Source of the DNA: Nitrospirota bacterium | GTDB taxonomy: Bacteria > Nitrospirota > Thermodesulfovibrionia > Thermodesulfovibrionales > UBA6898 | Length of the DNA stretch: 64,000 nucleotides | Assembly (NCBI GenBank): GCA_016235245.1 | Contig: JACRLO010000006.1 | Span: forward strand, 62,001 to 126,000 | Direction of reading: 5' to 3' | Part shown: in pieces, positions 56,252 through 58,351 of the stretch | Layout of the letters: every line of letters starts with the position of its first letter | How positions within the stretch are numbered: position 1 is the first letter of the stretch | Position numbers and translations under genes: made by a program | Notes under the pieces: generated by a model | The model's input: the letters and a program-made list of their open reading frames with translations, nothing else | Database searches by the model: none | Told to the model about the DNA's origin: nothing

Positions 56252-58351
56252 TCAGATCCTGAATCTGCGCAGTGAATGCAGCAGATTTTCGGCCTCTTTT
56301 GAGAGAATCACGATCTGACGATCCATTTCACCGGAAGATCCGATTAGTTCATCAGTCGTTTTCTGTATTTTTTCGACAGCATCAACAATTATAGTGCTGC
56401 GCAACCGCTGGCTGTTTGTTGCTTCAACGATCTGGACCGTTTGAAGGTTGACATGTTCCATGGCATCGGTTATCTGTTTACTTCCCCTTGACTGTTCCTC
56501 CGTGGCCATCTGAATTGCATGAGAACCCTCTTTCATCTTTTCCGTCGCATCCATAATCAAACGGCTGCCCTTGCTCTGCTCTTCGGTAGCGTACGCGATA
56601 TGTGTTATCTGCTCCATAATTTCATTGGTAGCCTCGGTTATCTGGCTGATGGCCAGCGTTTCCTCCGCCGCAGCCTTACGAATCATTCTGGCCATTTCCG
56701 TGGAGGAATGCGAACTGGTTATTATGCTATTGAGACTGTTTTTTACGTCGTTAAAAAGTGTTATTCCCTTTTCGACCGCACGAAGACTCCTTGCCGTCAT
56801 TTCAACACTTGATCTGGTCTCCGCCTGCACTGAATTGATAAGCTTTGATATTTCGGTCGTTGAAAAAGCGGTCCTCTCTGCAAGTTCTCTTATCGCGTCA
56901 GCAACCACGGCAAAACCCTTGCCATGAGTTCCTGCCTTGGAGGCAAGAATTGCCGCATTAAGCCCCAGAAGTGTGGTCTGGTCTGCCACATCGTCTATCA
57001 CCGTAAGGACCTTTCCGATCGCCTCAGACCTCTCGCGCAAGCGTCCGATTACTTCTGATATGGCGCTCACCGTTTCCCTGATTTCAGTCATACCGTCAAG
57101 GGCGGCATTTATCGCAGTCAGTCCAGACCCGGATGCTTCCTGATCAACTTTCTCAGCAAGCTCCACCGATATATTTGCATTATGGTCGACCTCTTTGACC
57201 GCTATGTTTATTTCTGAGAGTGCGGACGAGGTCTCAGAAGAGGACGCCGACAGATTATTCAGATTTTCCGTAATCGTCCTGATTGATGCAATCATCTCCT
57301 CTACCGAAGATGCTGTTTCCTGCGATTCCTCATACGCTACGGTGGCATTTTCAGCGACTTGATGGATCGAGATGTTCATTTGCATGATGGCCGATGTAGT
57401 TTCCGCTGAGACCGCAGAAAGGCTTTCAGCGGTTGCCGCAAGATCAGCGGTCGAACTATTCATGTCCGCGACAGCAGCAGCGGTGGAGACAATCGCCTCT
57501 CTCTGGACGTCGGCCTTGCCCAGAACTTTTTGAGAGGAAGCAGCAATGGCTGAGGTGACCGTTGAGACTGTTCCGGTAATACGTATCACCTTGGATATCA
57601 TATCCTTAAAATTCAAGCCTATCGTGCTGATCGCCCGGCTTAATGCCATGATTTCGGTGCTTCCCCGAATATCGACCGTCTCTGTTAAGTCGCCGGTAGC
57701 AATTTTCTCCGCAAAGCCAATAATCCTCCGTATTGGTCTGACCGCTGCATAACTGAACATGAAAAAAATGGAAACCGACAGACACAAAAGCATCCCGATG
57801 CCAAAAAAGATGTTGTATAGCACCACAAGAGAAAACCTTTTTTGGACATTGACCTTTGTCATGCCGAGAACGAGACTCCCCAGCACGGTGCTGCCATCGC
57901 TCACAGGGGTCCTGATATGCATGATATCCTTATTTGTTTTAAGAATGCCGAGGACTTGCGAAGGGTCTTCCTCCTGTTTGATTATGCCTTTGACAATCTC
58001 GTCTTCAAAATCTACGCTGCCCATAAGACTGGTGATCGGCTTGTCATTGGCATCAAGAAAGAAGGCAAAAACCACCTCTTTTTCCTTTATCGCTTCACCC
58101 GAGATATTGTCAAGCTTCAGCACATCCTTATAGAGATACGGGTCCGTAGCAAGCTGTGAAACGAAAAAAGAGACGGTCTTGCCCCTGTCCTGGAGTTCCC
58201 GCATCATGTTCTCTCTCTCCCAATAAAGGAAGACTCCGTTGCCGGTTACCACGACAACGGCCAGCACCACGCATGACAGGATAACGAACTGGGTGGCGAG
58301 ACTGACGCCGGCGCCGAAACCAGATTTTCTGACGTCCCTGTCCTGAGGCAC
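56252..58351 (-). CDS. Methyl-accepting chemotaxis-like transducer with altered signalling tip
   Basis: 699 aa. An N-terminal helix (about 20-44), a periplasmic region of about 130 residues, a second helix (about 180-205), a HAMP domain ([23 protein letters not shown]) and a long coiled coil with the MCP hairpin follow in order. The tip reads [44 protein letters not shown]. Typical MCPs have [11 protein letters not shown] and DEVRKLAER, so both Glu residues are replaced here. It begins 2 bp after the PhnD-like gene and should respond to that binding protein. CheA coupling is doubtful. Confidence 0.85.

Follow-up and report, generated by a model that had tools for sequence, protein, structure and literature searches.

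A non-canonical chemoreceptor paired with an ArrX-like binding protein in an arr-like locus of a Nitrospirota bacterium

The window analysed here is a stretch of 64,000 nucleotides from a Nitrospirota bacterium, and it covers much of a gene run on one strand that encodes, in order, a tandem ArrX-like protein, a histidine kinase, a sigma54-type response regulator, an ArrX-like protein with an HD-GYP protein, a membrane protein, a further ArrX-like protein, a methyl-accepting chemotaxis protein (MCP), and ArrA-like and ArrB-like proteins. The ArrA-like molybdopterin reductase (53130..55709, minus strand) scores 1027 bits against NF041714, for which the curated cut-off is 1600, and the ArrB-like iron-sulfur subunit (52323..53111, minus strand) scores 242 bits against NF041715, for which it is 450. 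Both thus score under the NCBIfam equivalog cut-offs, yet the arr models are the best in each case; consequently, arsenate respiration appears likely rather than certain. Upstream of arrA lies a sigma54-like promoter motif (56002..56017, minus strand), the one site in the window that fits without a mismatch, and a second motif with one mismatch (63350-63365, minus strand) lies upstream of the HD-GYP-linked ArrX gene. Their positions would fit the presence of a sigma54 regulator; across the window, motifs with at most one mismatch do not exceed chance (7 found, 5.87 expected in shuffles).

The regulator gene (63524..64000, minus strand) is represented by its C-terminal part and runs out of the window, and upstream of it stand the histidine kinase gene and then that of the tandem ArrX-like protein (575 aa). 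This kinase-linked copy (L036:11337-13064) joins two phosphonate-binding domains, the first ArrX-like and the second matching PtxB-type binders. Divergent from its gene is that of a GGDEF-EAL protein of 879 aa (L036:13291-15930), relatives of which (65-66%) occur near ArrX loci in L070/L214, L209 and L219. The HD-GYP protein (60238..62493, minus strand; 751 aa; HD_5 135.5 bits) has a periplasmic domain, a two-CW-like region (two_CW 34.9 bits, cut-off 35) and a GAF domain, and the NosR-family phosphodiesterase model falls under its cut-off. The gene of a second ArrX-like periplasmic binding protein (62490..63329, minus strand; ArrX 3.6e-39) lies upstream and overlaps the HD-GYP gene by 4 bp, and the two proteins are likely partners. 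Between the HD-GYP gene and the next ArrX gene lies that of the membrane protein (59262..60227, minus strand; 321 aa), which has about four hydrophobic stretches and a Cys-rich C-terminal motif (CSFCSKVRDDKGQW...CPVCAQKHYP); pieces similar to this protein come after ArrX-like genes in L166 and L167.

The MCP gene (56252..58351, minus strand) is an open frame with a GTG start and encodes 699 aa without interruption. Pfam places MCPsignal at residues 411-579 with 129.5 bits, against a curated score of 34.6, while HAMP remains just short of its cut-off (23.9 versus 25 bits). Two hydrophobic membrane stretches, at about residues 18-36 and 181-199, enclose a periplasmic domain of roughly 145 residues (about 37-180), and HAMP begins at about residue 200, followed by a long hairpin that has its tip at 465-493 and continues to the C-terminus. 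The C-arm of this hairpin measures 225 residues, and the N-arm, counted from the end of HAMP, about the same. A match to the methylation consensus is present at residue 347, 118 residues ahead of the first Asn of the tip (residue 465), and this offset is common to 43 of 84 rows of the receptor class described below. Searches with the N-terminal part in 61 genomes and with the whole protein in 395 Nitrospirota genomes found no close orthologue of the whole MCP. The best match to the whole protein is L090 (53% over residues 152-699), to which the signalling part is 57-58% identical over 449-485 residues.

The non-canonical signalling tip pointed out by the sequence-only reading is real and lies within an intact frame. 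That reading counted two replaced glutamates; compared with the canonical tips of the same genome there are three, namely E385L, E391T and E402A, accompanied by R388K, all in Tsr numbering. The conserved glutamates of the family at 385, 391 and 402 are therefore Leu, Thr and Ala here. Since the whole class to which the receptor belongs has position 385 replaced, the missing Glu385 does not, on the alignments, exclude membership of the MCP family. A salt bridge between E402 and R404 is described as stabilising receptor trimers (PMC6746300, in excerpt), which makes a weaker or altered packing plausible for the combination of E391T and E402A; in openly licensed literature we found nothing on Tsr tip mutants.

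Fifteen MCPsignal matches over the cut-off are present in the receptor's own genome, 14 of them with a full tip, and among these 11 carry Glu385 and 3 carry Leu385, the latter being the window MCP and two neighbouring receptors on contig C27. This proportion is unbiased, and leaves out the fifteenth match (L015) and three matches below the cut-off (L016-L018). Relatives in many genomes carry similar tips (e.g. NAAILAAQAGEHGKGF). The 106 tip rows assembled comprise 85 (83 distinct) with Leu or Ile at 385 and 21 (20 distinct) with Glu, a ratio in which Leu/Ile385 is over-represented, given that rows were gathered by similarity to the window MCP and from its own genome; repeats among them are L119 (the window), L024 (equal to L010) and the second row of L007 (equal to L001), and the tip pattern can miss atypical tips, as it did in L081 and L115. 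Throughout the Leu/Ile385 set, position 388 is Gln or Lys. Chance or error can be rejected as an explanation for position 385, because relatives share the residue.

In a maximum-likelihood tree of 101 rows, obtained after rows with fewer than 190 aligned letters were dropped, the Leu/Ile385 proteins, including the window MCP, form one clade of 83 with support of 100/99, and L090 is the nearest row to the window MCP (100/97); the tree carries a long-branch warning for L076, L052, L126, L014 and others. As the set is defined by the residue itself, the independent evidence for a class consists of this single clade and of a mostly shared long arm. The C-arm spans 32-33 heptads in 76 of the 85 Leu/Ile385 rows, the nine exceptions being truncated at the stretch end, fused to a PhnD domain or, in one case, shorter. 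In the Glu385 set the C-arm spans 20-21 heptads in 10 of 21 rows, although arm length is not a clean separator, for in the Glu385 rows L051, L062, L064 and L067 the C-arm reaches 216-233 residues, with two of the four truncated by the stretch end. With about 32 heptads per arm, the window class resembles MCP class 64H, one of the classes named in excerpts of PMC8235581, and by count it would be 64H-like, a label taken from length as distinct from the published class models.

Against this background, the tip is only partly peculiar to the protein. The change at 385 is a trait of the class, whereas E391T and E402A are, as far as the alignment goes, changes of the window MCP's own: of the 83 distinct Leu/Ile385 receptors, 8 lack Glu391 and 5 lack Glu402, and no other of them has lost both.

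Directly upstream, the gene of an ArrX-like periplasmic binding protein (58354..59214, minus strand; 286 aa; PF12974 211.5 bits), which has a signal peptide-like start, ends 2 bp ahead of the MCP start. Its best match in the PDB is ArrX (3.4e-58), followed by AioX (1e-30) and by phosphonate and phosphite binders (2.6e-18 or weaker); ArrX of Chrysiogenes arsenatis (PDB 6x6b; PMC5908839, in excerpt) is, among solved structures, the closest to each of the three binding proteins of the locus. Excerpts of Badilla et al. (PMC5908839) give 1 uM for the binding of arsenate by ArrX and 150 uM for that of phosphate. Of the AioX pocket residues given in the same excerpts, six of seven are identical in the MCP's partner, Cys106 included, and Ser163 is replaced by Thr, so that its pocket, mapped by hand from the alignment of the PDB comparison, reads Y67, C85, Y112, S142, T144, H174 and D192. 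The pocket Cys is kept in 47 of 47 aligned rows and does not set the MCP's copy apart from the others; arsenic binding may be general in the aligned ArrX-like group, or the Cys may serve a different purpose. We consider it probable that the partner binds arsenate.

Pairing with a binding protein is the rule among the closest relatives in the class, since 22 of the 24 upstream frames at their loci encode one (20 ABC_sub_bind-like, 2 PBP_like_2), the remaining two encoding a rhodanese (L090) and an ethylbenzene-dehydrogenase-like protein. These 24 frames derive from 27 loci, with L111, L116 and L118 having no upstream frame in the stretch read and L113 and L115 missed by the pattern; ten partners were assigned by Pfam and 14 by BLAST similarity (54-90%) to a Pfam-assigned one. 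Several clades in a tree of 47 binding proteins follow the type of partner. The window protein forms one clade with L149, L150 and L151 (99/94), each with an MCP gene adjoining or near (in L151 a PBP_like_2 gene stands between the ArrX gene and the MCP), the kinase-linked tandems form another (25 rows, 100/99), as do the HD-GYP pair (100/100) and six rows beside proteins of 356-448 aa (100/99), and a nine-row clade is mixed, with GGDEF, kinase-like and small membrane partners and one row whose partner was not read. ArrX-like genes adjoin GGDEF proteins in L155, L159, L160 and L164, membrane proteins of about 356 aa in L128, L154, L156, L158, L162 and L163, and a large kinase-like protein in L161.

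Known systems offer several points of comparison. With its conserved pocket, arrAB-like genes, histidine kinase and sigma54 regulator, the locus resembles sensing of the arrX-arrS-arrR type (PMC5908839, excerpts), but unlike ArrX of C. arsenatis its paralogues adjoin an MCP and an HD-GYP protein besides a kinase, and the kinase-linked copy is a tandem. In phosphate taxis of Pseudomonas aeruginosa, a periplasmic oxyanion binder, PstS, presents its ligand to the chemoreceptor CtpL (PMC4926252, excerpts); on this precedent, we think that docking of loaded ArrX on the periplasmic domain of the window MCP is quite probable. CtpL is nevertheless a receptor of another type, with a domain of 286 aa, and PstS also serves transport (same excerpts); for the window ArrX and MCP, the analysis covered gene pairing and co-inheritance. 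The aio-linked Mcp of Agrobacterium tumefaciens GW4 is, like the window MCP, encoded beside an arsenic redox locus, but it binds arsenite itself through a domain at 43-325 aa and did not bind arsenate; unlike for the window MCP, no binding-protein partner is described for it in the excerpts of PMC5335332 on which this comparison draws.

Tandem ArrX proteins recur in other Nitrospirota, with kinase and regulator where the contig reaches them; the recurrence counts comprise sets of 21 and 19 loci, at least seven of which are the same records, plus L152. In a contig scan with the three binding proteins, the matched gene is closest to the kinase-linked copy at 21 of 21 loci, and a second copy of the window ArrX-MCP pair was not found among those 21, in a scan that may omit records very near the window's genome. 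A nearby reductase is 60-86% identical to the window ArrA in, for example, L069, L073, L074, L085, L152 and L224, and only 21-30% identical in, for example, L078, L080, L087, L211 and L225. As several kinase-linked ArrX loci thus adjoin reductases unlike the window ArrA, the ligand at such loci need not be arsenate everywhere, and for this reason we hold arsenate less firmly as the ligand at our locus. L069/L212 (one record) also has the pair of HD-GYP and ArrX-like genes, and L076 has an HD-GYP gene (51% over 597 aa). Some of the ArrX loci include a receptor, with Leu385 in L076, L081/L208 and L152 and with Glu385 in L070/L214 and L209. The receptor of L152 (L152:8664-10772), from a congener, is an arr-linked Leu385 receptor with CxxCH in its sensor and Val in place of Glu391.

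The nearest orthologues of the window ArrX (64-66%), L149 and L150 from two distant genomes of one family, stand beside receptors with Glu385 tips, so the choice of array is not set by ArrX. In its signalling part, the L149 receptor shares 56% identity with the C10 receptor of the window's own genome. Among 127 proteins compared, a set whose 104 controls contain copies of three partner MCPs (L114, L120 and L122), the periplasmic domain of the window MCP best matches those of L149 (73.3 bits) and L150 (52.3), the next score being 44.6, with a global identity to the two of 24-28%. Related sensor domains are thus combined with different hairpins, an argument for reading the odd tip as a mark of the array to which the receptor belongs and against a loss of kinase control. 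The L149 domain is closer still to those of Leu385 receptors in L182 (50%), L174 (38%) and L193 (37%), on whose contigs the search for relatives of the window ArrX gave no ArrX-like match. Moreover, of 71 relatives of the sensor domain (matches reaching the periplasmic part in the 61-genome search, compared with 39 binding-protein places), only 12 adjoin an ArrX-like gene. Taken together, these two observations suggest that the sensor-domain family is wider than ArrX.

The sequence-only reading had proposed looking for CheA and CheW in the genome, and doing so reveals four CheA-like genes, on C6, C10, C38 and, interrupted, on C27. The che cluster of C38 is flanked on both sides by flagellar rod/hook matches, with one further match on C14, and all four C38 receptors have Glu385 tips. 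The C27 cluster encodes a CheY-like protein, CheA, an AAA protein, CheW, receptor 1, a PBP_like_2 binding protein, receptor 2 directly following it, a second CheW, a HEAT-repeat protein, CheR, CheB and a GAF protein, and both of its receptors share the Leu385 tip with the window MCP. Receptor 1 (L038:7840-10722; 960 aa) consists of an Mcp40H-20 sensor domain with CxxCH, HAMP, an MCP hairpin and a PhnD-like domain at the extreme C-terminus; a third hydrophobic stretch was not seen in it, and many relatives have matching frames of about the same length.

A genome with a receptor of the window class usually also has a CheA of the C27 type: among 395 Nitrospirota genomes, 109 have both, 10 and 7 have one singly and 269 have neither (Fisher p 7.6e-76), an association that is partly built in, as class receptors sit within the che cluster and the genomes are related. 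The thresholds were E <=1e-70 for the class receptor and at least 406 bits for the CheA, the latter set by eye with the next excluded score at 391 and no clear gap. Receptors of different length are proposed not to mix and to go with their own Che proteins (excerpts of PMC2577667 and PMC3945109), and on that ground the C27 array is favoured over that of C38. The kinase of the window MCP is, in our judgement, probably the C27-type CheA, and we hold a non-flagellar output to be about as likely as not. The earlier suggestion that the protein signals to something other than the flagellar kinase thus probably holds, in that its Leu385 tip matches the C27 and not the C38 receptors; it was half right, with the kinase probably not the flagellar one, but still a CheA.

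Could the receptor, its tip notwithstanding, instead belong to the canonical C38 array and drive swimming toward or away from arsenate? The genome has the flagellar che cluster with its CheA, and the canonical-tip MCPs beside the ArrX orthologues of L149 and L150 and at the ArrX loci of L070/L214 and L209 indicate that arsenate sensing can be wired to an array of the Glu385 type; some Glu385 receptors of relatives also approach the window MCP in arm length. However, within its own genome the C-arm measures 141-153 residues in 8 of the 11 Glu385 receptors, compared with 225 in the window MCP, a difference that weighs against such an arrangement if length classes do not mix as proposed (PMC2577667 and PMC3945109, excerpts), and both tip class and tree go with C27. 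We therefore regard an ordinary flagellar chemoreceptor as unlikely.

The C27 CheA frame (L038:12201-14187) holds one in-frame TAG in this assembly and no other stop, and unless this TAG is an assembly error the C27 pathway may be dead in this genome. A degenerating receptor with poor or no coupling, in which relaxed selection would account both for the TAG and for the replacements at 391 and 402, is consistent with the interruption, with the double change found in this receptor alone among 83, and with the loss of Glu391 in the arr-locus receptor of the congener. Yet the congener has the same cluster with an intact CheA of 662 aa, and dN/dS between the two CheA genes is 0.06 overall, 0.071 before the stop and 0.038 after it; given this purifying selection on either side, the TAG would fit a recent change or a sequence error. 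Further points against degeneration are the intact 699-aa frame, the identity of 57-58% that its signalling part retains with L090, and seven other class members that vary at 391 with Glu402 kept, and we find this explanation quite improbable.

The sequence-only reading had named the HD-GYP protein of the same operon as a possible target of the MCP in place of the flagellar kinase. The two genes do belong to one run, and HD-GYP genes are also found at ArrX loci of L069/L212, with an ArrX partner, and of L076. However, the HD-GYP protein has an ArrX-like partner gene of its own, overlapping by 4 bp, no receptor gene is present in the stretch read of L069/L212, and by Pfam the protein contains only HD and GAF domains; on the receptor side, the class goes with CheA and the methylation site is kept. 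Direct coupling of this kind was rejected as the main reading, on account of the separate ArrX-like partner and the co-occurrence of class and CheA, and we consider it very improbable.

Starting from class membership, gene pairing, the relationship to ArrX, pocket conservation and CheA co-occurrence, all observed at the level of sequence, the account towards which we lean is of an ArrX-dependent arsenate chemoreceptor that feeds the C27-type CheA and not the flagellar array. Arsenate, and perhaps also phosphate, would be bound in the periplasm by the ArrX-like partner, the loaded ArrX would dock on the periplasmic domain of the MCP, and the long hairpin would pass the signal to a C27-type array of CheA and CheW; in parallel, the two other ArrX-like proteins would inform the histidine kinase with its sigma54 regulator and the HD-GYP protein. 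The steps that we infer here, namely ligand, docking, kinase partner and output, are not independent of one another. More tentatively, one arsenate signal might be split by paralogous ArrX proteins into transcription, c-di-GMP turnover and a non-flagellar array, with the unit of ArrX plus sensor re-plugged among lineages by hairpin exchange, as the long Leu385 hairpin in the window and the short Glu385 hairpin in L149 and L150 might suggest. Among the listed titles and abstract openings of openly licensed papers on ArrX with arsenate and chemotaxis, on arrA with methyl-accepting proteins and on PhnD with arr operons, we found none describing such an arrangement, and in the excerpts of one review (PMC8846402) ArrX appears in the references only.

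An odd tip readily leads to a receptor being labelled as broken or independent of CheA, and here the tip can instead be read as a label of the receptor class and, probably, of its kinase. The interest of the locus lies less in the tip as such than in the link to arsenate and the use of ArrX for several outputs. If the proposed account is true, the ArrX family of periplasmic anion sensors would have a kinase, a c-di-GMP enzyme and a chemoreceptor as its partners, and the window MCP would be a testable candidate for arsenate taxis, in a cell that may respond to arsenate and may also be able to breathe it.
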